From Massilia sp. PAMC28688 (GTDB lineage Bacteria; Pseudomonadota; Gammaproteobacteria; Burkholderiales; Burkholderiaceae_D), in the NCBI RefSeq assembly GCF_019443445.1, contig NZ_CP080378.1, positions 1,550,001 through 1,614,000 of the forward strand: DNA of 64,000 nt, in the 5' to 3' direction. Of this stretch, positions 4,366-27,800 are shown one piece after another; the stretch's first letter is position 1; every line of letters starts with the position of its first letter. Below the pieces are notes generated by a model, which had not been told where the DNA came from, ran no database searches, and saw nothing but the letters and a program-made list of their open reading frames with translations. Both the position numbers and the translations under genes were made by a program.

Positions 4366-6000
4366 ATGCAAAAGATGCTTTCCTCACTCGCGACCACGGC
4401 GCTGGCTACCAGCCTCGCCCTGGCTTTTCCCGCTCACGCAGCGCCAGCGGCCAAGAACACGGTAGCCACCGTTAAGGAAGCCCCGATACGGGGCCACCTG
4501 GCCTTCCTGTCGAACGACTTGCTGGAAGGCCGCGGCACCGGCCAGCGCGGCGGCGACCTAACTGTTGCCTACCTCGAATCCCAGGCCATCGCGGCCGGTC
4601 TCAAGCCTGCCAATGGCGACAGCTTCCGCCAGTCGGTCAAGATCGCCGGCGTGAAAGCGACACCGGAGTCGAGCACCGTGGCACTGGAAGCAGGCGGCAA
4701 GCCGCTCAATCTCGCCTATGGCAGGGACTGGGTCTGGGGTCCGGGCGACGCCAAGGCGGCGCGCACCATGAATGCGGACCTGGTCTTCGTCGGCTACGGC
4801 ATCAACGCACCGGAAGAAGGCTGGAACGATTACAAGGACACTGACGTCAAGGGCAAGGTCGTGGTCATGATGGTCAATGACCCGATGCCGACCGCCGCCG
4901 AGCCAAACCGCTTTGCCGGCAAGGGTCTCACCTACTACGGCCGCTGGACCTACAAGTTTGAAGAAGCCGCGCGCCAGGGCGCGGCCGGCGTCCTGCTGAT
5001 CCATACCGACCCATCGGCCTCGTATGGCTGGAGCGTGGTGCAGAACAGCTGGACCAGCGAACAGTTTCAGCTGGCCGAAGGAAAGCTGGGCGCCGGCATG
5101 CAGGGCTGGATGACCGATGCCACCGCGCGCAATCTGTTCAAGGCCGCCGGCCATGATCTGGACGCGCTGCGCGCCGCGGCCGAAACCAAGGACTTCAAGC
5201 CGGTCGCGCTGGGCGCCAAGGTCAAGGGCGAAATGAAGGCGACGGTGCGGACACTGGAGCAGTTCAACGTGGCGGGCATCGTGCCGGGCACCGATCCCAA
5301 GCTCAAGGACGAAGCGGTCATCTACACGGGCCACTGGGACCACCTGGGCAAGCAGGGCGACGGGCCGGACAACATCTTTAACGGCGCCGTGGACAACGCC
5401 TCGGGCCTGGCCGGCCTGCTGGCCATGGCGGAAGCTGCAGTCAAGGCGCCGACCAAGCGCACCCAGATGTTCCTGTTCGTGGCAGCCGAAGAACAGGGCT
5501 TGCTGGGCAGCTCGGCGTATGCCGGCAGCCCGCTGTGGCCCCTGAACAAGACCGCGGCCAACCTCAATCTGGACAGCCTCAACTTTGTGGGCCCGACACG
5601 CGACATTAACACCCAGGGCAGCGAGCGCAGCACCCTTGGCGCCATGGCGGCGGCCACTGCCAAGGCAATGGGCATGAGCGTCAGCCCAGTCGAGCCTGAC
5701 CTGGCGGGCATCTTCTTCCGCAGCGACCACTTCGCCTTTGCCAAGGCTGGCGTGCCGGCGTTCTCGATCAAGGGCGGCAAGGATTACAAGGGCGACCAGG
5801 AAGCGGCCAAAGCCAAGGCTGCCACCTACAAGGCCAAGTACCACCAGGTGGGCGACGAGTATGATCCAAGCTGGGATCTGGCGGGCATGGTGCAGCAGGC
5901 CCAGTTCACGCTCAACCTGGGCCGCATGGTGGGCAATGCTCCCGCCATGCCGACCTGGAAACCGGGCGACGCATTTGGCAAGGCGCGCGCCGCCAAGTAA
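4366..6000 (+). CDS. Secreted M28-family zinc aminopeptidase
   Basis: A 544-residue exported peptidase. It has a signal peptide ending near AHA (about residue 26), a protease-associated (PA) insert region around 135-260, then the M28 di-zinc domain. Metal-site motifs in order: HWDHLG (about 326-331), NGAVDNASG (bridging Asp, about 343-351), AEEQGLLGS (catalytic and binding Glu, about 379-387), NLDSLNF and RSDHFAF (last His). All key residues are present. Start ATG 4366 precedes the signal peptide; the frame is open to 4276 but that part lacks a site. A strong terminator follows directly. Confidence 0.9.
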   Translation: MQKMLSSLATTALATSLALAFPAHAAPAAKNTVATVKEAPIRGHLAFLSNDLLEGRGTGQRGGDLTVAYLESQAIAAGLKPANGDSFRQSVKIAGVKATPESSTVALEAGGKPLNLAYGRDWVWGPGDAKAARTMNADLVFVGYGINAPEEGWNDYKDTDVKGKVVVMMVNDPMPTAAEPNRFAGKGLTYYGRWTYKFEEAARQGAAGVLLIHTDPSASYGWSVVQNSWTSEQFQLAEGKLGAGMQGWMTDATARNLFKAAGHDLDALRAAAETKDFKPVALGAKVKGEMKATVRTLEQFNVAGIVPGTDPKLKDEAVIYTGHWDHLGKQGDGPDNIFNGAVDNASGLAGLLAMAEAAVKAPTKRTQMFLFVAAEEQGLLGSSAYAGSPLWPLNKTAANLNLDSLNFVGPTRDINTQGSERSTLGAMAAATAKAMGMSVSPVEPDLAGIFFRSDHFAFAKAGVPAFSIKGGKDYKGDQEAAKAKAATYKAKYHQVGDEYDPSWDLAGMVQQAQFTLNLGRMVGNAPAMPTWKPGDAFGKARAAK

Positions 6001-6018
6001 GCAGCGACAGAAAAAAAA

Positions 6019-6053
6019 GGCCGCCCGGTTTTATCAGCCGGGCGGCCTTTTTT
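6019..6053. terminator. Bidirectional intrinsic terminator
   Basis: A perfect 10-base stem (GGCCGCCCGG / CCGGGCGGCC) with a 9-base loop, an A-run on the left and a T-run on the right. It sits between the convergent M28 peptidase and TerB-like genes and can serve both strands. Confidence 0.9.
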
Positions 6054-6074
6054 GTTGGTCCAGGGGCGACGCGA

Positions 6075-6527
6075 TTACAGTTCGAACTCCGACGGCTCCA
6101 CGCCCAGTTCACGGGCGATCTTGCGCGCCACGACCTTTTCGTTTTCATCGAAGTTGCCGTCAGATGCCGCAACTGCAATGATCATGCGCACCAGCAAGCG
6201 CGACGCGTCCTTGTTGTTCTTCATCTTGCCCAATGCCTGGTAGGCCTTGGCTTCGCCGATGTCCTTGTCGAATTCGAGCTGGGTGACGGCATCCTGGAAC
6301 GACTTGATGACGTCGCTCGTCGTGAAGACTGACAGGGCATCGTTGCTTTCGATGAATTTGATCATCTTTTGCTTTTCTTCGGAGCTGACGCTGCCGTCAG
6401 CCATGGAAATCAGCGCGGCGCCCGACATGGCGGCGTTGAGGAAATCCTTGTTCTTGAACTTGAGGGCTTCGGTCTTGAGTTCGCCTGCCTTGGTCTTCAA
6501 GTTTGAAAGGAAATTGGAAAAACTCAT
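6075..6527 (-). CDS. TerB-like (tellurite resistance / DjlA-N fold) protein
   Basis: A 150-residue cytoplasmic helical protein. It shows the TerB-type pattern of an acidic loop, MADGSVSSEEK (about residues 42-52), and a second acidic repeat near the C-terminus, ASDGNFDENEK (about 120-130). TerB-fold proteins bind divalent metal and occur in stress and membrane-associated complexes, but no other ter genes are nearby, so tellurite resistance should not be assumed. The start at 6527 is chosen because GGAGAG lies just upstream; the frame is open 37 codons further without support. Confidence 0.8.
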   Translation of the reverse strand: MSFSNFLSNLKTKAGELKTEALKFKNKDFLNAAMSGAALISMADGSVSSEEKQKMIKFIESNDALSVFTTSDVIKSFQDAVTQLEFDKDIGEAKAYQALGKMKNNKDASRLLVRMIIAVAASDGNFDENEKVVARKIARELGVEPSEFEL

Positions 6528-6597
6528 GTGCACTCTCCGGTGGCGTTGATCAATCAAAGCGTTATCATACTCCGCCTTGATTTTTTTGCTACATTGA

Positions 6598-7128
6598 TTA
6601 CTTGATGACGGCGCAGGCCATGCGTGCCCCGCCACCACCCAGTGGGGCAGGATGGTCGGAATGATTGTCGCCGCCGGCGTGGATCATCAGTGCCTTGCCC
6701 TTGATGTCGGCCAGCTTCAGGCGCGGCGCCAGCACCGGCATGGTGGCCGCGCCCTTGGTGTCCACCACCAGCGCGGGCAGGTCACCCTTGTGGCCGCTGC
6801 CCCATGGCAGGCCGTGCTTGCCGGTTTTCTCGGGATCATAGTGGCCGCCTGCGGCCAGCGCGGGAACCATCTTGCCATCCTTTTTCTCGGGCGCGCAGCT
6901 GCCTTTTTCGTGCACGTGGAAGCCGTGAACGCCAGGGGCCAGGCCGGTGAGCGCTGGGGTGAAGACGACGCCGTACGGTGTCTCTTCGACGGTGACGGTG
7001 CCAATGGCAGCGCCAACGCCGCTTTCGGACACGACATTCATCGTGACAGGCTCAACAGCCGCCTTGGACGTGGCCAGCGCTGCGCTGCTGCACAACAGGG
7101 CGGCGGACATCAGGATCAATTGTTTCAT
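6598..7128 (-). CDS. sodC: Cu/Zn superoxide dismutase family protein
   Basis: A 176-residue periplasmic enzyme converting superoxide to peroxide and oxygen. It has a signal peptide ending near ALA (about residue 19). Metal ligands are visible in HGFHVHEKG (about 68-76), [20 protein letters not shown] (zinc Asp) and [11 protein letters not shown] near the end. The disulfide cysteines are in GSCAP and MACAV. Length is that of a complete SodC. Start 7128 precedes the signal peptide and follows GAGG on the minus strand. It lies 70 bases upstream of the TerB-like gene and may be cotranscribed with it. Confidence 0.92.
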
Positions 7129-7311
7129 CTGGCATACCTCTTCGTGAGTGGCAAAGGAAGGATGGTAACGCATGTGAGGAAATGATGGCGCTTGGACAAG
7201 ATACCTGATTTGGCATCCTTCCCCTTCCATTGCATGAAGGTAATCGACGCCGGGATTACGCCAGGTTTGCTAGCATTTGCATTTCCGCGAGTCTATTGCG
7301 ATAGGAGAATT

Positions 7312-7869
7312 ATGCTCAAGCACACCGCCATCCTGTGTACGGCCTTGCTGGCCGCCTGTTCCGAGCGCACCGTCGTGCAGAGCCCTGCTGAGCCGATGAC
7401 TGCCGAGCAAGCTGTGGATGCTGCGCCTGCACCAGACTCTGTCCAGGGCCCGCTGACGCTGGGGGCCGAATCGATCGGCCCGGTCAAATTCGGCAGCAAG
7501 CTGAGCGAGGTTGAAAAGGCGCTGAAGGAAAAAGCCGGCGGCGCGCAGACCGAGGAATGTTCATACGTCAAATTCGCGTCCCTGCCTGAGGTGCTGTTCA
7601 TGGTCGAAAAGGGCATCGTCACCCGTGCCGACCTGCGCGGCGACGTTCCCAACACCACGGGCTTCAAGGTGGGCGACGACCCCGCCGCGCTGAGATCGAA
7701 ATACCCGGGCGCCGTGGTCACCGGTCACAATTACGTTCCGGCCGGGCATAACATCAAGGTCCAGGGACAAGGCAGGGCCGCGCTGCTGTTTGAAGATGAC
7801 GGCGAGCGAATTACCAGCGTGCGGGCGGGAATCGAGCCGGCGGTGTCTTACAGCGAGGGGTGCTCCTGA
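7312..7869 (+). CDS. Small lipoprotein, unknown function
   Basis: A 185-residue probable lipoprotein: a short signal with lipobox LLAAC (about residues 12-16), then a low-complexity linker and a folded part. SIGPVKFGSKLSEVEKAL recalls the repeated helical element of bacterial lectin-like or lysozyme-inhibitor-like secreted proteins, but I cannot assign a family. Two cysteines (EECSY and the last residues EGCS) could pair in the periplasm. ATG 7312 has AGGAGA seven bases upstream. It is divergent from sodC. Confidence 0.75.
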   Translation: MLKHTAILCTALLAACSERTVVQSPAEPMTAEQAVDAAPAPDSVQGPLTLGAESIGPVKFGSKLSEVEKALKEKAGGAQTEECSYVKFASLPEVLFMVEKGIVTRADLRGDVPNTTGFKVGDDPAALRSKYPGAVVTGHNYVPAGHNIKVQGQGRAALLFEDDGERITSVRAGIEPAVSYSEGCS

Positions 7870-15914: not shown

Positions 15915-16781
15915 ATGTCAAATTCCTCCATGCCACTTCGACCAAAGCCGCGCCGGCACCTTGCCCACAGGATCATCGACCGCGTCGTCAGCACCATGCT
16001 CATGAAGGGCAAAGTGGCCGCGTGGAGCTATCGCCTGGGCTGGCACGGCGAGCTCGGCGTTGTTGAATACGGTGTGACCCTGAGCGAGGAAAAAACCTTG
16101 CCAGCGCCGCTTCGCATCGGGTTCGTTTCGGACCTGCACGCGGGACCATCAACCCATGGTGGGCTGTTTGCGCAACTGCGCGATCAGTTGCAAGCGCTGC
16201 GTCCGGATGTGCTGCTGCTTGGCGGTGATTATGTGGCCTTTAATGCCCGACATGTCGAGTTGTTGCGCGATCTGTTGACCGGATACGCGCCAGTGCTCGG
16301 AACTTATGCCGTGATCGGCAATCACGACATTCGGGGCGGCCGGGAATCAATAGAGAGCGCTCTGCGGGGCATGGGTGTGGAAGTCCTGGTCAACCGCAAC
16401 ATCGCCTTGCCCGCGCCTTTCGACATGATCAGCATTTGCGGCATTGACGACCCATGGACAGGTGACGCGGACGCGGGCCCGACGTTTGCTCAATCCGGCC
16501 CGGTCAAACTGTTTCTGACGCATTCCCCCGACGGATTGCTGCACCTTGGCGAAGCAAGCTTTGACCTTGCCTTCGCTGGTCATACGCACGGCGGGCAGGT
16601 CGCTCGTCGCGATGGCGCGCCGGTCGTGCAGCCAACCGGACCGTTATCGCGGCAATATTGCTATGGCGAGTTTGCCGTGCCAGGCAACGGCACGATGTTC
16701 GTCAGCCGCGGGTTTGGATGCACCTTGATTCCATTGCGTATCAATGCCGATCCGGAACTGGTGATCTGCACGCTGGTGTAG
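15915..16781 (+). CDS. Metallophosphoesterase
   Basis: A 288-residue calcineurin-like phosphoesterase. The five metal motifs are visible in order: SDLHAG (about 74-79), GGDYV (about 107-111), GNHDIR (about 138-143), THSPD (about 200) and GHTHGG (about 220-225). A basic, partly hydrophobic N-terminal segment (about 15-45) resembles the membrane-associated YaeI-like group, which acts on phospholipid intermediates; that is inference. Its 3' end (about 16628-16781) is repeated in degraded form at 18188. Confidence 0.88.
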   Translation: MSNSSMPLRPKPRRHLAHRIIDRVVSTMLMKGKVAAWSYRLGWHGELGVVEYGVTLSEEKTLPAPLRIGFVSDLHAGPSTHGGLFAQLRDQLQALRPDVLLLGGDYVAFNARHVELLRDLLTGYAPVLGTYAVIGNHDIRGGRESIESALRGMGVEVLVNRNIALPAPFDMISICGIDDPWTGDADAGPTFAQSGPVKLFLTHSPDGLLHLGEASFDLAFAGHTHGGQVARRDGAPVVQPTGPLSRQYCYGEFAVPGNGTMFVSRGFGCTLIPLRINADPELVICTLV

Positions 16782-16878: not shown

Positions 16879-17173
16879 CTATTCGGAATGCTCGCGGACG
16901 TAGGCTTTCAACACCTCATCCATCCTGGTCTGCCAGCCCTCCCCTGTGCTCTTGAAGAAGGCAATGACCTCGGGGCTGTATCGAACCGAGGTCAATATTT
17001 TGGTGGACTCTGAGCGCGGCCGGCCCTTCGCGGCTGCAAGAGGTACCAGATTAGCGAGCTGTTGAGGCGTCATGGGTTGCGCCTCTGGATCGGCCTTTGG
17101 CGCCTGCGAGAATGACCTGATCCTCCTCGATGGTCGGCATCCCTATGCTGGCTGGATTAAAGACTTTCGACAT
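16879..17173 (-). pseudogene. BrnA-type antitoxin, frameshifted
   Basis: Two overlapping minus-strand frames together give one BrnA-family antitoxin. The first (from ATG 17173, with GAGGTG upstream) codes MSKVFNPASIGMPTIEEDQ; the second codes KGRPRSESTK and then the ribbon-helix-helix part SPEVIAFFKSTGEGWQTRMD. Removing one G or A from the run AAAGG near 17080-17090 restores a single frame reading ADPEAQPMTPQQL, as expected for the family. BrnA represses its operon and neutralises the ribonuclease BrnT. No brnT gene is visible beside it. It is either a true loss-of-function mutation or a sequencing error in a short homopolymer. Confidence 0.7.
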
Positions 17174-17612: not shown

Positions 17613-17993
17613 ATGTCCAAAGTATTCAGGAAAATTGCCGCCATATTCGCGGCCCTCGCTGCTGCAACGCTAGCTTCGGTCGGACAAGCGGATGCAGGTT
17701 ATCGCGCAGTTGCCGGCGTTTTCCAGATTTATGGCGGTGAGCTAGGTGATCCGGTGGCGGCTAGCAAAAAAGACGCGAAGATTGCCTTCTCGATCAAGGG
17801 GCAAGCTGCAATTGAAATGTTCAATGCCATGGGGCCGGACGCAAAAGATTCATGTACCCAGGGCAGTGGGACTCGCGTGCGGAAAAAGGACAACGAAAAT
17901 CTCGTCTGTCTGCGTTTTGCAGAGGGCCTATACAGCTGCCGCTTTGGCTTCGACCTGAAGTCCGGCCGAAGCATCGGCGGAAGCCTGTGCTGA
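17613..17993 (+). CDS. Small secreted protein, unknown function
   Basis: A 126-residue protein with a signal peptide (about 1-27, cleavage near ADA) and three cysteines in the mature part, the last being the C-terminal residue. The ending FGFDLKSGRSIGGSLC is a conserved tail I associate with an uncharacterised family of small exported proteins. Its last third plus 150 bases of downstream sequence is repeated at about 19351-19590. The ribosome binding site before ATG 17613 is weak. Confidence 0.6.
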   Translation: MSKVFRKIAAIFAALAAATLASVGQADAGYRAVAGVFQIYGGELGDPVAASKKDAKIAFSIKGQAAIEMFNAMGPDAKDSCTQGSGTRVRKKDNENLVCLRFAEGLYSCRFGFDLKSGRSIGGSLC

Positions 17994-18150
17994 GCGCAGC
18001 GGCCTCGTTTCGTCCCGCCCATCCACCATTTATCCGGAATCGAGCTTGCATTAGGCGAGCTGACGACGGATGTTGCCCGGCCGATTTTCGCGCCGACTCG
18101 CCATTAATGCTCAGTCCGTCTCCGTTTGGCGGCACTGCCCCCCTACCCGC
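17905..18150 (+). repeat. Segmental duplication A, copy 1
   Basis: About 245 bases covering the 3' end of the small secreted protein and its downstream flank. It matches 19351-19592 in the same direction, with many substitutions and small gaps. Shared landmarks are AAGCATCGGCGG, GAGCTTGCATTA and AATGCTCAGTCCGT. Confidence 0.75.
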
Positions 18151-18187
18151 CGCCGCCCCCCTGTCCGCCGCGATGGGGCGCCTAGTG

Positions 18188-18395
18188 CAGCCGACGGGGA
18201 CCGTTGTCGCGGCAATATTGCTATGGCGAGTTTGCCGTGCCCGGCAATGGCACCTTGATCATCAGCCGAGGATTTGGCTGTACATTGATTCCCCTGCGCA
18301 TCAATGCTAATCCGGAAATGGTTATCTGTACCATGCTGGAACTGGAATGTGACTTAGCGAAAAATGAATTTGACACGGCAAATAGTGCGCGGTAA
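18188..18395 (+). pseudogene. Metallophosphoesterase 3' fragment
   Basis: About 155 bases match the 3' end of the metallophosphoesterase gene (16628-16781). They code QYCYGEFAVPGNGT, FGCTLIPLRINA and VICT in one frame, followed by an unrelated tail of about 15 residues. The catalytic motifs are all missing. This looks like the end of a second, lost phosphoesterase copy or a partial duplication. Confidence 0.75.
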
Positions 18396-19243: not shown

Positions 19244-19350
19244 CCGGAGATGGTCCGTCAGTGCTAACCGACCGGTTACTTCTCAGATTGTAGGGACGCC
19301 GGATCTTCCCCCCGTCAACTTCGCATTGCCTCGCCCGTGTCGGGATGTCT

Positions 19351-19592
19351 TGTCTGTCTGCGTTGCAGACGGCGAATACAGCTGCCGATTCGGTTTTGAC
19401 CTGAAGTCTGGCCGAAGCATCGGCGGGAGCCTGTGCTGAACGCGGCCGCCTCGTTGCGTCTCGCTCACCCACCATCGCTCCGGATCGAGCTTGCATTACG
19501 CGTGCTGATGACGGGTTTATTGTCCCCCGCCAATTTTCACGCAGATTCACTTTTAATGCTCAGTCCGTGTCCGCTTGGCGGCACTGACCCCG
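19351..19592 (+). repeat. Segmental duplication A, copy 2 (with protein 3' fragment)
   Basis: Degraded second copy of 17905-18150. The frame ending at 19439 still reads YSCRFGFDLKSGRSIGGSLC but has no start or signal peptide, so it is a gene fragment. The downstream part runs into the short-repeat patch. Confidence 0.75.
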
Positions 19593-19741
19593 TCGATTTC
19601 CCCACTTTTAATGCTCAGTCCGTGTCCGCTTGGCGGCACTGACCCCGTCGATTTCCCCGTGTCCGCTTGGCGGCACTGACCCCGTCGATTTCCCCTGACC
19701 CCGTCGATTTCCCTTGGCGGCACTGACCCCGTCGATTTCCC
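19585..19741 (+). repeat. Irregular repeat, unit TGACCCCGTCGATTTCCC
   Basis: Five exact copies of the 18-base unit begin at 19585, 19640, 19677, 19696 and 19724. The spacers (55, 37, 19 and 28 bases start to start) are truncated pieces of one longer unit containing CCGCTTGGCGGCAC. The pattern suggests repeated unequal deletion within an original long repeat. Confidence 0.85.
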
Positions 19742-19760
19742 CCGTTGCACCTGTTGAACT

Positions 19761-20163: not shown

Positions 20164-20187
20164 ATGAGCAAGAAGACAACAGCTAAG
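20164..20187 (+). pseudogene. Interrupted nuclease-like gene, part 1 of 3 (start)
   Basis: The first eight codons (MSKKTTAK) of a gene broken by an IS5-family element. An in-frame TAG directly before ATG 20164 fixes this as the earliest start. The last five bases, CTAAG, are repeated right after the element at 21402-21406, the expected target duplication. Joining 20164-20187 to 21407-22244 and 24899-25908 gives 1872 bases, exactly 624 codons with one stop at the end. Confidence 0.85.
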
Positions 20188-21401
20188 GGAAGCACTGATT
20201 TAATCGACGAGTTGACTCCGCGCGCCGTTCTGAACTGGCACAATAACGCATCCCACTTTCAGCCTGAAATCATGAAACAAACGACCTTTTCGGATGTCGA
20301 ATTTGCCGGCAAAAAGAAGTCGACGCGGCGTGAGCGCTTTCTGGCGGAGATCGACGCGGCGACGCCGTGGCCGGCTCTGGTGGCGGGATTGCTGCCGTAC
20401 TACCCAAAGGGAGACGGGCGTGGACGTCCGCCAATTGGCCTGGAACGCATGCTGCGCATGTACATTGCGCAGCAATGTCTGGGGCTGTCCGACGAGGGCA
20501 TCGAGGACGCGATTTACGACATCAGCTCGGTACGTAACTTTGTTGGCGTCGACCTCACTCACGAATCGGCGCCAGACGCGACAACGCTACTCAAGTTTCG
20601 CAGACTGCTCGAAGACAACGCACTGACCGCCCGTGTGTTCGATGAAATCAAGGCGCACCTCGCCAGCAAGGGTTTGTCGATGCGTGAAGGGACCATCGTC
20701 GATGCCACGCTGATCGCGGCACCGCCTTCGACGAAGAACAAGGATGGCGAGCGTGATCCGGAAATGCACCAGTCGAAAAAGGGCAACGACTGGCACTTCG
20801 GCATGAAGGCACACGTTGGCGTGGACATGGCTACTGGCTTGGTTCACACGGTCGTCGGCACAGCCGGCAACGTGTCCGACGTGACGCAGGCGCATGCGCT
20901 GCTGCATGGCGGCGAAAAGGTTGTCCTGGGCGACGCCGGCTATCAGGGCGTAGCGAAGCGCCCTGAGAATGCTGACAAAGCAATCAGCTGGCACACAGCA
21001 ATGCGGCCGGGCCTGCGCAAGGCGCTCAAGAAAAACAAGCTGGGTCGCGCGAAAGAAACGCTGGAGCACACGAAGGCCAGTGTGCGCGCCAAGGTTGAGC
21101 ATTGCTTCCATGTCGTGAAGTGCCTGTTCAAACATCGCAAGACTCGCTACCGTGGACTTGCCAAGAACAATGCGCAGCTGCTCACGTTGTTCGCACTGGC
21201 GAATCTGGTGCTGGCCCGCAGGTACCTGGGCAGCGCGCATACCCAAGTTGCGTCCACTGCATGAAAAATAGGGGGCAATCGCTGCTGAAATCTCGATTTG
21301 CAGCCCTTGCCGGTCCCGAAGATGGGTCAAGACAGAAGAATCTCGCCGAACAGGCGCCAACACGAAAATCGACCTCAAAACCTGATTAGTTCAGCACTTC
21401 C
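20188..21401 (+). mobile_element. IS5-family insertion sequence, complete
   Basis: An element of about 1.2 kb. The ends are imperfect inverted repeats: GGAAGCACTGATTTAATC on the left and, read inward from the right end, GGAAGTGCTGAACTAATC. CTAAG flanks both sides (CTAA or CTAAG duplication; the start is ambiguous by one G). It contains one transposase gene with no visible damage. It splits the nuclease-like gene after codon 8. Confidence 0.92.
20272..21264 (+). CDS. IS5-family transposase
   Basis: A 330-residue DDE transposase. The N-terminal part has the DUF772-type dimerisation domain (LERMLRMYIAQQCLGLSDE), followed by the catalytic domain: first Asp in IVDATLIAAP, second Asp in VLGDAGYQGV, and Glu in VRAKVEHCFHVVK. 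All three catalytic residues are present. The frame is open upstream to 20164, but those codons come from the interrupted host gene and the left end of the element. ATG 20272 (MKQTTFSDVEF) matches the usual family start. Confidence 0.9.
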   Translation: MKQTTFSDVEFAGKKKSTRRERFLAEIDAATPWPALVAGLLPYYPKGDGRGRPPIGLERMLRMYIAQQCLGLSDEGIEDAIYDISSVRNFVGVDLTHESAPDATTLLKFRRLLEDNALTARVFDEIKAHLASKGLSMREGTIVDATLIAAPPSTKNKDGERDPEMHQSKKGNDWHFGMKAHVGVDMATGLVHTVVGTAGNVSDVTQAHALLHGGEKVVLGDAGYQGVAKRPENADKAISWHTAMRPGLRKALKKNKLGRAKETLEHTKASVRAKVEHCFHVVKCLFKHRKTRYRGLAKNNAQLLTLFALANLVLARRYLGSAHTQVASTA

Positions 21402-21406
21402 CTAAG

Positions 21407-22244
21407 CTTCGGACCGCAAACCAGAAGGTAGACCAGACCGATATTTTGCGGCATCTACTTGATGTGGATACTCCTGAATCCAAAAACCTTCAGCTCATCG
21501 ATGAAATCAGAGTGAACCGGTTTTACGCCGACGAGGCTGTCGCAAACGCCTTGGCGGCCCACAGCTATTCGCCCTTCAACCGCCTTGCCAGAGAGGCGCA
21601 GGCAATCCAAACCATCGAAAACAAACTCTTGAAGGAAATAGGAACGATATCAGCGCGCTTTTCCTCGCGTTCAGATGAGCTGGTGCATGTGCTTTATGCG
21701 CTGGAAGCCGCGCAAAGACAGCGTTTCGATCTGCCAGTATGGAAGCCACTATCGATAAGAATCGAGGACCGCAATCCTGACGGCAAGCTGTACGAAAGTG
21801 AATTCGACGCAATATCTGCACTGGACTACTTTCTGGTATACATAGGCGTCGTCATGAAGTCGATGATTGGACAGGGGCTGCCGGAAAATGCCCCTGAAGC
21901 TAGCGCGGAGAAGGTAGGCGTAGCAGCTGGCCATATGGCGCTTGCATCAGATTGGCAGATCTTTCACGAGATGCGGACATTCTGGACGCACGGATGCACC
22001 AGGGTAAGCGAAAACGGCCAGGAGTTCGACAGCTCGGACAGCGAACTGGTGGCCGCTTTCCGCATTTCGCTATCGCGCCTAAGGGCGTTTCGAGTTATTC
22101 GAGCCACCGATCGGTTAAACGAAAAGCTAATAACTGATGGGACTCGTGTGCTCCCGATAGAAGGTATTCGTTCAAAGCGCGAACTGATCTCGGCATATTT
22201 GACCACACTTCAGTTTTATTCTACCGACCTCACGCAGAGGGTCC
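21407..22244 (+). pseudogene. Interrupted nuclease-like gene, part 2 of 3
   Basis: About 279 codons of the N-terminal and central region, without start codon of its own. It is largely helical (for example FNRLAREAQAIQTIENKLLKE in part) and has no domain I recognise. It ends within codon 288 of the joined gene at the IS21-family element. The last six bases, GGGTCC (22239-22244), are repeated at 24893-24898 beyond the element. The apparent ending VPRWPG of this piece is coded by the element's terminal repeat. Confidence 0.85.
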
Positions 22245-22295
22245 CCCGTTGGCCAGGTTAAATTCCCCCACCTTTGGCCAGGTCAAACTCCCCCA
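22245..22295 (+). repeat. IS21-family terminal repeat, left
   Basis: Terminal tip CCCGTTGGCC, then two TGGCCAGGTyAAA-type units ending in ATTCCCCCACC and ACTCCCCCAGG. It pairs, inverted, with 24838-24892. Confidence 0.85.
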
Positions 22296-22341
22296 GGCAG
22301 GACAGTCCGGATTGTAGTCCATGTTCCTGCCGGCAGCTTTG

Positions 22342-23124
22342 TCAGTCCTGCTTAACGTCGGCAGACGTCAAGCGCGTCAGCCGTGACGCTGCCTCCTTCA
22401 GCCGGTAGCTTTTCCCCTCGAACTCAAGGATGTGCGCCCGATGCATGAGCCGGTCAAGGATGGTGGTGGCCATGGTGTTGTCGCCGAGGTACTTGCCCCA
22501 GTCCTGCACGACCCGGTTGGAGGTGACCACGATGCTGCGCTTGAGCTTGTAGCGCTGGTGCACCAGCGTCTGTAGCAGCTCGCCGGCCTTGTCGCTGATG
22601 CGGCGCGCGAGGAACAGATCGTCCAGCACCAGCAGGTCGGCGTCTACCAGGGTGCGTAACTGCTGCCGCTGCTCGTCCTCGCTCCCGAGCGCATAGGCCG
22701 CGAACGCGCCATCGGCCTCCAGGTAGCGCACGTTGTGCCCTTGCAGCGTTCCCTGGTAGGCCACGGCCTTGGCGATGTGGCTCTTGCCCGTGCCCGGTCG
22801 GCCGATGATTAGCGCGTTCTGCCCCTCGGCGACGAACTTGAGGGTGTGCAGATCGAAGCACGCAGCCCTTGGCACCTTGGGGTTGAAGCGCCAGTCGAAG
22901 TCAGCCAGCGACATGCGCTCATCGAGCCCGCTCTGCTTGTAACGCCGCTCCATCAGGTGCGAGCGGCGCCGGTCAAGTTCGTCCTGCAAGATCAGCGCGA
23001 AGGTGTCGAGGAAGGGCTCCTGGGTAGCCTGTGCCTGCAGGATGCGGGTGTCAAGCGTGGCGCGGATGCCGGACAGGCGCAGCTCGCGCAGGGCGCGTTC
23101 GATTTCGTTCATGCTCATGCTCAT
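22342..23124 (-). CDS. istB: IS21-family helper ATPase IstB
   Basis: A 260-residue AAA+ ATPase that helps IstA choose and capture target DNA. It shows the Walker A motif GRPGTGKSH (about residues 109-117), the Walker B motif LLVLDDL (about 165-171) and the SNR sensor in VVTSNRVV. The N-terminal helical domain begins EIERALRELRLSGIRATL. Start ATG 23124 overlaps the istA stop by four bases, so translation is probably coupled. Confidence 0.93.
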   Translation of the reverse strand: MSMSMNEIERALRELRLSGIRATLDTRILQAQATQEPFLDTFALILQDELDRRRSHLMERRYKQSGLDERMSLADFDWRFNPKVPRAACFDLHTLKFVAEGQNALIIGRPGTGKSHIAKAVAYQGTLQGHNVRYLEADGAFAAYALGSEDEQRQQLRTLVDADLLVLDDLFLARRISDKAGELLQTLVHQRYKLKRSIVVTSNRVVQDWGKYLGDNTMATTILDRLMHRAHILEFEGKSYRLKEAASRLTRLTSADVKQD

Positions 23125-24734
23125 GGTGTCTCCTTGGTCGTATCAATGGCGGCGCTGGCGGTGGCCGCGCGCGCAAACAGGTCGGCGTAGTCCTCACCTT
23201 CGCCGATCAGTGGATGGTGCTGTTCCAGATCCAGCTCGGCCTGCAGTGGCGCGTCAATCTCGGCCAGCGCCTTCGCCAGCAGGCGTTCGGTGAGGTTCTT
23301 GATCGACTTGTAGTTGCGTACGTTCTCCTGCAGGGCCTGAGCGCACGCCTGATCGATCAGGCGGCGCGGGAAGCGCTTGGCCAAGCCCACCACGCCGCGC
23401 AGCTTGCGCTGGCCCACCCTGCCTTCATGCTCGAACCATTGCTGGCACAGCGCCAACGTGGCGTCGCCGATGTCGCCGGCCTGCGCCAGGATGCGGCGCG
23501 TCTCGCGCGAGGGGTTGAAGGGCCGCTCGTCGTCGGGCAGCAGCACGCTGCCAGGGCGCTGAGCGCGCGGGTGCGTGCGCAGCAGGCCCAGCGTGAGGCG
23601 GTCGCGGATCTCGACGTGGCGCTCGAACAGGCGCACCAGCACCCGGCTGCCGATCTTCGCCGGGCGTGCCGCGTAGCTGCCATGGTCGATGCGGATGCAG
23701 GTGTCGTCGGCGACGGTGCGCTCGCACTCGGTGTAGTAGCCGAAGCCCTGCAGCGGCAGCGCACCGAGGTGGGCGCGCTCCTCCTGGAACATGGCCTCGA
23801 CCTGTCGCCTGGCACTGCCATGGATGCGCGGCGCGGCCCACTTGGTTTCCCACTGTTCCAGGAACGTGTTCTGCTCGTCGATGGTCTCGAAGCGCCGGCC
23901 CTTGAGCGCGGTGCTCTGGGTATGCTGGATCGCGTTCTCGACCGTCCCCTTGCGGTTGGGATCGCGCACCCTGGCAGGGTCGGCGACGACGCCGTAGTAG
24001 GCCAGCACGTCCCTGTAGACGGGGTTCAGTTCCGGTTCGTACAGATCGGGCTTGATGACGCCTTCCTTGAGGTTGTCGAGTACGACGTAAGCGGTGGTCC
24101 CACCGAAGTACCGAAAGGCCTGCTCGTGCAGCTGAGCCCAGGTCTCCTTCGACGAGTTCCAGACCACGCGGCGGAAGCTGCGCCGCGAGTAGCGCAAGGT
24201 CATGACGAACAGGCGCGGCCGGCGGTAACGGTCACTGCCGGGGATGCGCGTCAGCGCGCCCTCACCGTAGTCGACCTGGGCCTCCTCGCCGGGCCCGAAC
24301 TCAAGCCGGTCGAACTGCTCCGGCTCGCGCTGCACCAGCCGGCCGGCGAAGCGCTTGACGCTGTTGTAGCGGCCCGTAAAACCGAACTGGTCGACCAAGT
24401 CCTGGTAGATCGACGTGTAGTTGCGGCGCAGGCGTAGCTGGGCCTCGATGAAGACGCGGTGTGGTTCGCACAGCGATTGCGGTCCGCTGTCGATTGCCGG
24501 TGGCCGGGGTGGGGGAATTTCAACGCCAGAGCCGGTGGCCGGGGTGGAGGAATTCGGTGCGGCTGCGCCGGTGGCCAGGGTGGGGGAATTTGGCTCTGGT
24601 CCCGTGCGGTCCAATGCCAGGCGGCGGATTGTTTTACGGTCTACCCCGGTGAGCCGCGCTATCTCGCGCTGACTAGTGCCGGTGGCCAACAGCGTGGCCA
24701 CTGTGGTTCGTTTGTTTGGTTTCAAGACGTTCAC
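23121..24734 (-). CDS. istA: IS21-family transposase IstA
   Basis: A 537-residue DDE transposase. It has an N-terminal helix-turn-helix (TSQREIARLTGVDRKTIRR, about 20-38), a second DNA-binding region and a catalytic core with Asp in AQVDYGEGAL (about 170), Asp in VVLDNLKEGV (about 235) and Glu in RKGTVENAIQ (about 285). Residues 48-80 form an unusual Thr/Ala/Pro/Gly linker. It is coded by three 24-base repeats that resemble the element's own terminal sites (see findings). Confidence 0.93.
   Translation of the reverse strand: MNVLKPNKRTTVATLLATGTSQREIARLTGVDRKTIRRLALDRTGPEPNSPTLATGAAAPNSSTPATGSGVEIPPPRPPAIDSGPQSLCEPHRVFIEAQLRLRRNYTSIYQDLVDQFGFTGRYNSVKRFAGRLVQREPEQFDRLEFGPGEEAQVDYGEGALTRIPGSDRYRRPRLFVMTLRYSRRSFRRVVWNSSKETWAQLHEQAFRYFGGTTAYVVLDNLKEGVIKPDLYEPELNPVYRDVLAYYGVVADPARVRDPNRKGTVENAIQHTQSTALKGRRFETIDEQNTFLEQWETKWAAPRIHGSARRQVEAMFQEERAHLGALPLQGFGYYTECERTVADDTCIRIDHGSYAARPAKIGSRVLVRLFERHVEIRDRLTLGLLRTHPRAQRPGSVLLPDDERPFNPSRETRRILAQAGDIGDATLALCQQWFEHEGRVGQRKLRGVVGLAKRFPRRLIDQACAQALQENVRNYKSIKNLTERLLAKALAEIDAPLQAELDLEQHHPLIGEGEDYADLFARAATASAAIDTTKETP
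24497..24591 (+). repeat. Three terminal-site-like repeats inside istA
   Basis: Units at 24497-24520, 24532-24555 and 24568-24591 share CCGGTGGCC, then GGGTGGGGGAATT with one variant base in the second. They are 35-36 bases apart, not a multiple of three, and the unit GGTGGGGGAATTT also occurs, inverted, in the left terminal repeat of the element. Confidence 0.85.
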
Positions 24735-24837
24735 CCTCCATGCCCCCTTCGATGGTCGAAGGGGTAAGGTTACGTCCTGCCAACGGGAATGCCCTCCGGC
24801 GACCAGGTGCCGGCTTTAAGGCGGCGCTAAACGGTCA

Positions 24838-24892
24838 GGAGGTGGGGGATTTTGACCCGGCCAGGGGTGGGGGATTTTGCCCGGCCAACGGG
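24838..24892 (-). repeat. IS21-family terminal repeat, right
   Basis: Two GGTGGGGGATTTTG units (near 24841 and 24866) with CCCGGCC between them, ending in the tip GGCCAACGGG. It is the inverted partner of 22245-22295. Confidence 0.85.
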
Positions 24893-24898
24893 GGGTCC

Positions 24899-25908
24899 AC
24901 GGTGCGTCCCTGGCTGAATGGCTTAGAGCCTACTCGATTGTCCTGGAATTGGCCGCGGAAACGATCGCCTCGCGGAAAGAGATAAGCGCGCCAGAAGACA
25001 TGCTTCTCCGCGGCGCAGCCGCTTATTTTGTAGATGAATTCGTGCGCCGCGGGGGACTCGATCCCAAAACTGCTCGAAGTATCCTGAGCCACCTCACTTT
25101 CAAAAAGACCTCAAAGGACTTGCTGGACGCGCCCTTTGTTTCAATTGGCGGCGAGCTCATCCTGATGCCTTCTGTAGCGTTCCTTATCGAACCTGCGTTC
25201 TCGATCGAATCGCTACTTAAGTCTATTCAAAAACATGATATTAATCATGAGCTAGCGTTCATCGGCGATGGATTCGAGAAAATCATTAAGAAGGATCTGT
25301 CAGGTGCCAAGCTTATTGCCCGCAAGGTTAAGCACCGATCCTATGAGTGCGATGTCGCTTTCGTGCTGGACTCAGTGCTTTTTCTTTGCGAGTGCAAAGG
25401 GCGATTGGTGCCCAGTGAATTCTGGAGCTACGCAAAATTGGAACATTACTTGACCCATGATGCGGTGGAGCAGCACACTCGCACCTGTGACTACTTCGCT
25501 GAACATTTACAATATGTACGAGGGAGCCTCAAGCTGCCACCGGACTGGCATCCTAAAGAAATTCGACGGATTATAGTAACGTCTGCCAAACTCGGACGTG
25601 CCATCACCAAAAATGGCATCATCATTGTGGATGAAAACACCTTCCACGCGTTTTTCTCCCGCATGCACCTGACGACGCGCGATCAAGACGGCGCCATTGT
25701 CGATAAGTCGATCGACTCGCGCCTTGTAGGCGAGCTAACAGCTGAAAATTTTATCGACTTCATTTCGGTTCCACGGTCCATCGTGCTCCACGAAGGTTTT
25801 CTTGCGCATCGCGAAGTCACTTTGCACTCGTTAGCGGACCGCGTGGTTATTCGCGATGTGGAATGCTATGGCGAAGTTAAACTCAGTACAACTGCCTCGG
25901 AAACGTGA
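24899..25908 (+). pseudogene. Interrupted nuclease-like gene, part 3 of 3 (PD-(D/E)XK-like)
   Basis: The last 336 residues of the broken gene, resuming with VHGASLAEWL in the frame left by part 2. A restriction-endonuclease-like core is suggested by FEKIIKK (Glu), YECDVAFVLD (Asp, about residue 450 of the joined protein) and LFLCECKG (Glu-x-Lys), the order and spacing of a PD-(D/E)XK active site. The substrate and partner are unknown. As it stands this piece has no start of its own beyond bases supplied by the element's tip, so an active protein is unlikely. Confidence 0.75.
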
Positions 25909-25941: not shown

Positions 25942-27797
25942 ATCGGCATAGGGGGCAGCCCTGAAGGGCTGCTCCCCTGCCACACCACCCGGCATGCGGG
26001 TCCGCACCGGGCGGTTCGAATAGTTGAGGTCAGGACAGGCGGGGTACGCCAAGCCGGTCGAAGTAGGCAATCGTAAGGACCGTCTTCAACAACCGGTCCG
26101 CATTGCGCCACCAGCAACGGCTATTTGCCGCCACCGTCCGCGCCACTTGGGACGCGGCTCCAAGCTGGATCAGCTCCCGATACATGGTCTTGCCGCGTTT
26201 CCAGTGCTTGAGCTGGATCGCTCGCAGCCTGTGACGCAGCCATTCATCGAGTTCTCGCCAGATCTTGGGCGTCTCCGCCAACTTGAAGTATCCCTTCCAG
26301 CCAAGCATGTAGGTACGCAGCTTCTCGACGATCTGGCCCATACTGCGGCCCGCTGAGCGTCCAGTCAATTCACGGATGCGCTGCTTGAACGTTGCCAGCG
26401 GCTTTTCAGCGACCTTCAGTTTGACCACTTTCCCACGTGCCACCCACAGGCTGTAACCGAGGAACTTGCGACCGAAAGCACTGCCGACCGCGCTCTTGCT
26501 TTCGTTGACCACGAGGTGCAACTTGTCATAGAGGCGGCGCAGCAGCGCCATCACCCGCTCGCCAGCACGTTTACTGCAAACATAGACGTTCGCATCATCG
26601 GCGTAGCGTGCGAAGCAGTGACCGCGTCGTTCCAGTTCTTTATCCACTTCATCGAGCAGAACGTTGGCAAGCAGTGGAGACAGGGGGCCGCCTTGTGGCG
26701 TGCCCTCATGCCGCGCCTGCACCACGCCATGGTCCATGATGCCGCTGTTCAGATAGGCACGAACCAGACGGATCACTCCGGTGTCGTCGATGCGTTTCCT
26801 TAGGCGGTCGATCAGGATGTCATGGTTGACCCGGTCAAAGAACTTCGACAGGTCCACATCCACCACGGTCCTGCGTCCCGATTGGACATATGCTTTGGCG
26901 GCAAGTACCGCATCCTGCGCACGCCGGCCCGGACGGAAGCCGTAGCTGTGCTCGCTAAATGTGGGATCAAGAATCGGTTGTAGCACTTGGAGCAGTGCCT
27001 GCTGGATCAGCCGATCCGTCACCGTCGGGATGCCAAGCTCACGCTCGCCACCGTCGGGTTTGGGGATCGTCACCCTGCGTACCGGGCTAGGCCGGTACGT
27101 CCCTGCCAGCAATTGTTCACGTATCTCCGGCCAAGCCACGGCCAGATAGCGAGAGGTTTCGTCGATATCCCGACCATCCACCCCGGCCGCGCCCTTGTTG
27201 GCGCGCACACGTTTGAACGCCTGCAGCAGGTTTTCTCTTCTCAACGCTGCGCGCAGCAGCATTGATCCTGCGTCTCCTGACACATGTCGCGGGCAACAAG
27301 CTTCGTCGCTGGAAGTTGCGGCCAGAGCTTCACCCTGACGTACGGCCTCCCGCCCCGCCTTCGCGGACATCTGACGCATTGCCTGTCGCATCGACATGTC
27401 GGATAACACTCCTACTCGTTCGGTCCTTCGTTAGCGGGGTCGAGCCTTCCCGGCGCTACCACCAACTACTATGACCTCTGCTGAGACCCTGCTACGGCAA
27501 TGCCGCCGTCCTTTCAGACGTGAGGCAGGGCGTCCCCAGGTAAGGGCCGCACTCCTTCACCACACAGCCGCCGCATCTACGCCGCCTCGCCTTGACCACA
27601 AGAGCTTCGCGGTTTGTGGCCCGCTCGCCCTGCTCGGCAGCGCCTTCTATGCGATTCTTGTCCATCGGCTCATGATTTACGATTCACGCTTCCTCCCCAC
27701 GGTCGATTACTCTTCCGCAGTTGCGCTTCACTTCGCTCGCTGTGGTCAGCTCGCGGCGGGACTTTCACCCACAGGAGTGCGCCCATGCTGGGCGCAC
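25942..27797 (-). mobile_element. Group II intron, class C type
   Basis: The intron RNA begins GTGCGCCC at 27797 and ends CTATGCCGAT at about 25942. Domain V is visible near 25975-26015: GAACCGCCCGGTGCGG with its complementary GCATGCCGGGTGGT. Domain VI precedes the 3' end. The region 27398-27797 is the folded 5' RNA. The 5' exon is an intrinsic terminator hairpin, the typical insertion site of class C introns. The encoded reverse transcriptase lacks a visible endonuclease domain, also as in that class. Boundaries are good to a few bases. Confidence 0.85.
26030..27397 (-). CDS. ltrA: Group II intron reverse transcriptase/maturase
   Basis: A 455-residue intron-encoded protein. RT motifs appear in order: RANKGAAGVDG, RRVTIPKPDGGERELGIP, YGFRPGRRAQDAV, VVDVDLSKFFDRVNHD, GTPQGGPLSPLLANVLLDE and the catalytic FARYADDANVY (about residue 210). 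The maturase domain X follows (LRTYMLGWKGYFKL). No C-terminal HNH endonuclease is present. ATG 27397 with AGGAG upstream is preferred over GTG 27409. Confidence 0.92.
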   Translation of the reverse strand: MSMRQAMRQMSAKAGREAVRQGEALAATSSDEACCPRHVSGDAGSMLLRAALRRENLLQAFKRVRANKGAAGVDGRDIDETSRYLAVAWPEIREQLLAGTYRPSPVRRVTIPKPDGGERELGIPTVTDRLIQQALLQVLQPILDPTFSEHSYGFRPGRRAQDAVLAAKAYVQSGRRTVVDVDLSKFFDRVNHDILIDRLRKRIDDTGVIRLVRAYLNSGIMDHGVVQARHEGTPQGGPLSPLLANVLLDEVDKELERRGHCFARYADDANVYVCSKRAGERVMALLRRLYDKLHLVVNESKSAVGSAFGRKFLGYSLWVARGKVVKLKVAEKPLATFKQRIRELTGRSAGRSMGQIVEKLRTYMLGWKGYFKLAETPKIWRELDEWLRHRLRAIQLKHWKRGKTMYRELIQLGAASQVARTVAANSRCWWRNADRLLKTVLTIAYFDRLGVPRLS

Positions 27798-27800
27798 CAC

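Follow-up and report, generated by a model that had tools for sequence, protein, structure and literature searches.

A candidate defence nuclease gene of Massilia interrupted by two insertion sequences

The defence protein Upx, which reportedly comes from Gao et al. 2020, and the NERD/Mrr family, which is marked by the residue pattern E - D - ExK - Q, are among the closest described relatives in build of the gene considered here. Upx is listed as a defence system in passages of three papers (PMC10855318, PMC12629846, PMC12824646), and according to passages of two others NERD is a PDDEXK member (PMC9009780) that occurs in other defence systems (PMC10952713). We analysed a 64,000-nucleotide stretch of DNA from Massilia sp. 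PAMC28688 (positions 1550001-1614000 of a one-contig, 5.46-Mb genome; hereafter the window), in which a single gene lies in three in-phase pieces, interrupted by two insertion sequences, one of IS5 type and one of IS21 type. We consider it fairly probable that this gene encoded a single-protein PD-(D/E)XK defence nuclease of a small, uncurated family, and that it was acquired horizontally and then silenced by insertion.

The interrupted gene and its intact relative

An earlier note on this DNA had proposed that one gene is split here by two insertions, and the flanking repeats, the open phase and an intact homologue confirm it (Table 1). The pieces of 24, 838 and 1010 nt make up 624 codons including the stop, all in phase. 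There are 0 internal stops in any piece in this phase; the alternative frames contain 18 and 9 stops in the middle piece and 13 and 19 in the last. This in-phase fit of the pieces exceeds chance.

Database searches used the pieces separately, never as a joined sequence. Both large pieces aligned to an intact 608-residue homologue (P0008) encoded by Massilia aquatica (genome G159, contig NZ_VVIW01000039.1), which belongs to the same genus as the window's genome. The middle piece matched residues 20-275 of this protein, with 124 of 257 positions identical (48%), and the last piece matched residues 279-603, with 162 of 326 identical (50%). Between the two alignments lie three P0008 residues, exactly the number given by the two final residues of the middle piece and the codon formed across the break. 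Because the intact homologue spans both large pieces with exact spacing, they represent one gene. A profile of six relatives likewise matched them at adjacent stretches (74-318 and 319-629 of 661). Had the pieces been separate genes, homologues might end at the piece boundaries; this was ruled out, as intact genes continue through them. In both halves, differences from the relative were fewest at codon position 2, more frequent at position 1 and most frequent at position 3, a pattern typical of coding sequence under constraint in the phase given.

Each insertion sequence shows the marks of its family. The IS5-type element has a DDE transposase (DDE_Tnp_1), inverted ends and a short target duplication, which would be 4 bp long if the G of CTAAG were assigned to the element; the IS21-type element has istA and istB (domains IstB_IS21 and rve), inverted ends and a target duplication. 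Elsewhere in the genome, the former has one further full copy (100% identity) and four partial relatives at 73%, and the latter three further full copies at 99-100%. Because of these near-identical copies both insertions look recent, which would also account for the pieces being free of stops. The locus is a recent pseudogene and, as a gene in this strain, ordinary. Two insertions in one 1.9-kb gene may mean that selection was relaxed or that it acted against a costly nuclease.

Table 1. Pieces of the broken gene, its nuclease core and the inserted elements (window coordinates).
Feature	Position	Strand	Basis
Broken gene, first 8 codons, ATG start	20164..20187	+	N-terminus like that of homologue P0011
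Direct repeat CTAAG, left copy, 5 bp	20183..20187	+	sequence
IS5-type insertion sequence, 1214 bp, DDE transposase	20188..21401	+	imperfect inverted ends, domain match
Direct repeat CTAAG, right copy	21402..21406	+	sequence
Middle piece: helical N-terminal region, 279 open codons + 1 nt	21407..22244	+	sequence, alignment to homologue
Direct repeat GGGTCC, left copy, 6 bp	22239..22244	+	sequence
IS21-type insertion sequence, 2648 bp, istA 23121-24734, istB 22342-23124	22245..24892	-	inverted ends, domain matches
Direct repeat GGGTCC, right copy	24893..24898	+	sequence
Last piece: 2 nt finishing the junction codon, then 335 residues + stop	24899..25908	+	sequence, alignment
PD-(D/E)XK core, E...D...ExK...Q (GDGFEK ... 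YECDVAFVLDSVLFLCECKG ... EQHTRT)	25264..25485	+	alignment; residues 122-195 of last piece

Further traces of IS21-type elements were seen at two places. Short GTCGATTTCCCC-type repeats at 19560-19760 of the window resemble the ends of more such elements and are perhaps remnants. The other place is in M. aquatica, where a truncated IS21-type istB (L008:11834-12499) begins 6 bp past the intact homologue, so that in both genomes elements of this type lie in or right beside the gene.

Nuclease domain and N-terminal region

The intact protein consists of a helical N-terminal region of about 280 residues (helical by prediction), a linker module (EWxRxY ... SxDxxDxP), a nuclease core and a beta-rich tail. 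Both the nuclease domain and the conserved EWxRxY module fall in the last piece. The residues E403, D428, E441, K443 and Q468 (P0008 numbering) are kept in all 29 aligned rows that cover them, and the E, D, ExK and Q of the core are the predicted metal-binding residues. The earlier note had read a PD-(D/E)XK-like pattern in the C-terminal part and proposed a profile or fold search for a nuclease fold; the conserved residues bear the pattern out, and the homologue model has the core fold of the superfamily. The C-terminal part is almost certainly a PD-(D/E)XK nuclease domain. Its predicted fold is well supported, and nuclease activity is inferred for the intact protein.

No curated family was found for this protein. 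No Pfam curated cut-off was reached by either of the two pieces or by six intact homologues, no NCBIfam cut-off was reached by either piece (the pieces being the only queries there), and PHROG matches were weak or absent. In PADLOC, both window pieces gave 0 rows at E <= 1, and the six homologues gave no strong match, the best being to CARF nucleases over the core (E 9.5e-5). The N-terminal piece modelled alone had no convincing fold match, which together with the absence of a curated match agrees with the note, which recognised no known family in this region. A HEPN RNase was considered there, the HEPN motif being R-x4-H and the window piece containing RTFWTH, and was rejected because the His is not kept: its position is Q, Y, R, F or another residue in many alignment rows. 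The nuclease family was not described in the titles and abstract openings among the literature matches listed.

Distribution, genomic site and neighbours

The family is rare and patchy. A protein search that scored 7996 candidates recovered 14 clusters, one of them P0008, and alignment gave the same 14; a more distant alignment gave six relatives, one of which is the protein of locus L013 itself. Matches turned up in 2 of 195 genomes of the taxonomic family and in 4 of 398 of the phylum, counts that each include the window's genome; the single match among 369 genomes of the class was that genome itself. Around genome G741, 2 of 295 matched, both already in the set. At the level of the order 7 of 399 genomes matched, with full-length matches only in the window's genome and G377; the other five, in which the match was confined to short segments around the nuclease motif, were rejected as members. 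Six loci came from a pattern scan of 84,980 species genomes, and relatives are carried on five plasmid records, from Priestia, Exiguobacterium, Erwinia, Klebsiella and Agrobacterium. The Klebsiella copy encodes a 675-residue relative (L038:29247-31274) as an accessory gene on a 53-kb circular record, which is filed as a plasmid and reads, from its capsid, portal, tail, integrase and excisionase genes, as a circular lambdoid prophage. The relative and a small DUF1737 gene lie there between DinI and the replication genes, on the opposite strand to their surroundings. E. coli genomes gave no DNA match with this copy. Relatives thus occur in alpha-, beta- and gammaproteobacteria and in Bacillota, a rare and patchy spread that fits what is expected of a mobile accessory gene.

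In the window, the gene lies within a variable stretch behind rpoC, from about 7003 to 27798 (about 20.8 kb). Downstream of rpoC, similarity to the window ends at about 27798 in seven of nine sister stretches. In the remaining two, G011 and G075, genes matching window 5000-7003 come within about 0.5 kb, against 20.8 kb in the window, and in G192 a match to window 5002-6535 is about 8.4 kb away. The rpoC stretch of M. aquatica (L032) lacks that species' homologue, which sits on another contig. Because of these differences between sister genomes, and because the guanine-plus-cytosine content of the gene pieces is low (0.52 and 0.51, against 0.61 for the window), the composition and position of the gene point to horizontally acquired DNA. 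The same stretch contains a group II intron with a reverse transcriptase/maturase (26030-27800, minus strand; RVT_1, GIIM; Rfam D1-D4 matches). It seems to begin directly after the T-run of the rpoC terminator, where the seven sister stretches lose similarity; group IIC introns insert directly after terminator T-runs. The window also has diverged direct duplications of 82-83% identity (17900-18142 with 19348-19591, and 16605-16771 with 18166-18331) that cover portions of neighbouring genes, including the end of a metallophosphoesterase.

The neighbours of some relatives suggest a defence role. We collected 15 relatives' loci with context (M. aquatica L008, Achromobacter L009-L012, L013, L025-L028 and plasmid records L003-L007), with genes taken from existing annotation or called by a simple script for the longest open reading frames (ORFs). 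An ORF-by-ORF PADLOC scan covered 50 ORFs from five loci (L013 and L025-L028), and a control scan covered 125 of 141 ORFs in nine regions from four of the five genomes. Known defence genes lay near the relative at three of the five fully scanned loci, either adjoining it or within 3.4 kb. In L013, from a Hyphomicrobiales metagenome-assembled genome, the gene stands between a type III methyltransferase/restriction pair (E 2e-206 and 1e-196) and GajB/GajA (9e-198 and 8e-199). In L028, a stretch that includes an integrase arm, it has a PDC-S11 candidate and an HNH protein on one side and PD-Lambda-5 A/B (6e-255 and 7e-121) on the other. In L027, JetB, JetC and JetD lie 3.4 kb away, at the start of the fetched stretch, and no JetA was seen. 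The restriction gene of the type III pair in L013 is itself split into two ORFs (L013:4614-6185 and 6281-7645).

Several results weigh against a defence role. The other two fully scanned loci, L025 and L026, are without a known defence system, and over all 15 loci, ten of them partly checked, known defence genes are near only three. The control regions were not empty either: a Gabija pair was found in L040 (at least one of nine regions), and there were rows for PD-T4-4_A, PDC-M47A and mad3. Because of this, and because numbers this small do not allow a test, the comparison of three of five loci with at least one of nine control regions is suggestive only. At the M. aquatica, Achromobacter and plasmid loci, annotations, sequence reading and single proteins revealed nothing conspicuously defence-like beyond HipA, toxin-antitoxin genes and the L012 helicase. 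HipA genes lie near the Erwinia copy and near the Achromobacter copies L009, L011 and L012 (by sequence; HipA_C confirmed for L012), the L012 helicase is of Schlafen type with weak PDC-S41/Nhi/AbiO rows, and toxin-antitoxin genes surround the Agrobacterium copy. Those of the window's own neighbours that were checked, by Pfam only, encode a short-chain dehydrogenase, a phosphoesterase, a BrnA antitoxin, a TonB-like protein and one unmatched protein, with no known defence gene among them save the lone BrnA antitoxin (16879-17073, minus strand). Three homologues used as queries found no relative in 50,697 phage records, and none of 43 pattern hits on viral contigs was confirmed. Foldseek gave no match at E <= 0.001 in PDB or BFVD, and a 14-sequence profile searched against PDB gave chance-like rows only. 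The defence role, like the nuclease activity, is inferred. The earlier note's description of an undescribed nuclease, possibly a silenced defence gene, thus stands as to the missing curated family and the two insertions; as to defence, it draws on the neighbours of some relatives.

For a defence nuclease, the course of events would be as follows. The gene would have arrived by horizontal transfer into the variable stretch behind rpoC. The helical N-terminal part of its product might sense infection or maintain an assembled form of the protein, after which the nuclease would cut invader or host nucleic acid, with defence against phage or other invading DNA as the net effect. The IS5-type and IS21-type insertions would later have knocked the gene out.

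Alternative explanations and known systems

An unlikely alternative is a PD-(D/E)XK nuclease that serves repair, recombination or mobile-element upkeep, with neighbours that merely reflect shared mobile islands. Such a role would agree with the patchy distribution, with relatives on plasmids and one prophage, with structural matches of the homologue that include Hjc, EndoMS and XisH folds, and with most of the 15 loci (five fully scanned) showing no recognised defence system. However, no replication, repair or mobility partner gene recurs in the loci read, and known defence systems are immediate or close neighbours at three of the five scanned loci.

It is likewise doubtful, and compatible with a silenced defence nuclease, that the protein is a small standalone version of Upx that shares the C-terminal half of Upx beyond the nuclease core. 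A structure of Upx (9wuf) matches the homologue model across 359 residues, nuclease included, but Upx, with 1212 residues in its chain, has roughly double the length, and sequence profiles showed no match. At E <= 1 neither the pieces nor the six homologues gave a PADLOC row named Upx, in a library not confirmed to contain an Upx model, and none of the papers seen dealt with 9wuf. Rather tentatively, the relatives could form an undescribed one-gene defence family with a helical sensing region and a PD-(D/E)XK nuclease, a cut-down Upx build that travels on prophages, plasmids and islands, is costly, and is lost by repeated insertion, here twice in one gene.

That the pieces still function, with the C-terminal ORF at 24877-25908 (TTG start) yielding a short nuclease, perhaps through expression from the IS21 end, is very improbable: its 343-codon open frame does extend back into that end and neither piece has accumulated stops, but recent insertion accounts for the absent decay, 27 of 28 relatives are 574-724 residues long (P0021 alone has 361), and promoter-like sites were not above shuffled sequence and were both on the opposite strand.

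If intact relatives protect against phage, the defence nuclease we favour would belong to a rare, widely scattered one-gene family that the libraries searched have missed and of which intact members are already at hand. The fresh double knock-out would then be a clean case of a nuclease-type defence gene lost via insertion sequences.

Among known systems other than Upx, the Hjc and AF1548 nucleases are short chains (119 and 184 residues) whose match is confined to the core. The CARF nucleases Can2, Card1, Cdn1 and VC1899 share the nuclease core, and Can2 is the best PDB profile match (E 0.004). They differ in that the VIA alignments start at model residue 240 or beyond and leave the predicted helical N-terminal region uncovered; no CARF match was seen in that region. 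For NERD, none of the six homologues reached the gathering cut-off of PF08378 (22.1 bits; best 17.8 bits), and the window pieces gave no NERD row at E <= 1. Matches below the cut-off do fall on the nuclease core of P0003, P0005, P0006 and P0007, the last with a weak Mrr_cat row as well, and P0008 is labelled 'NERD domain-containing' in UniRef. The residue order E - D - ExK - Q is common to the NERD/Mrr-type domains (PF08378, PF04471) and the present family, which differs from them in a helical N-terminal region and an EWxRxY module that lie outside the NERD matches.
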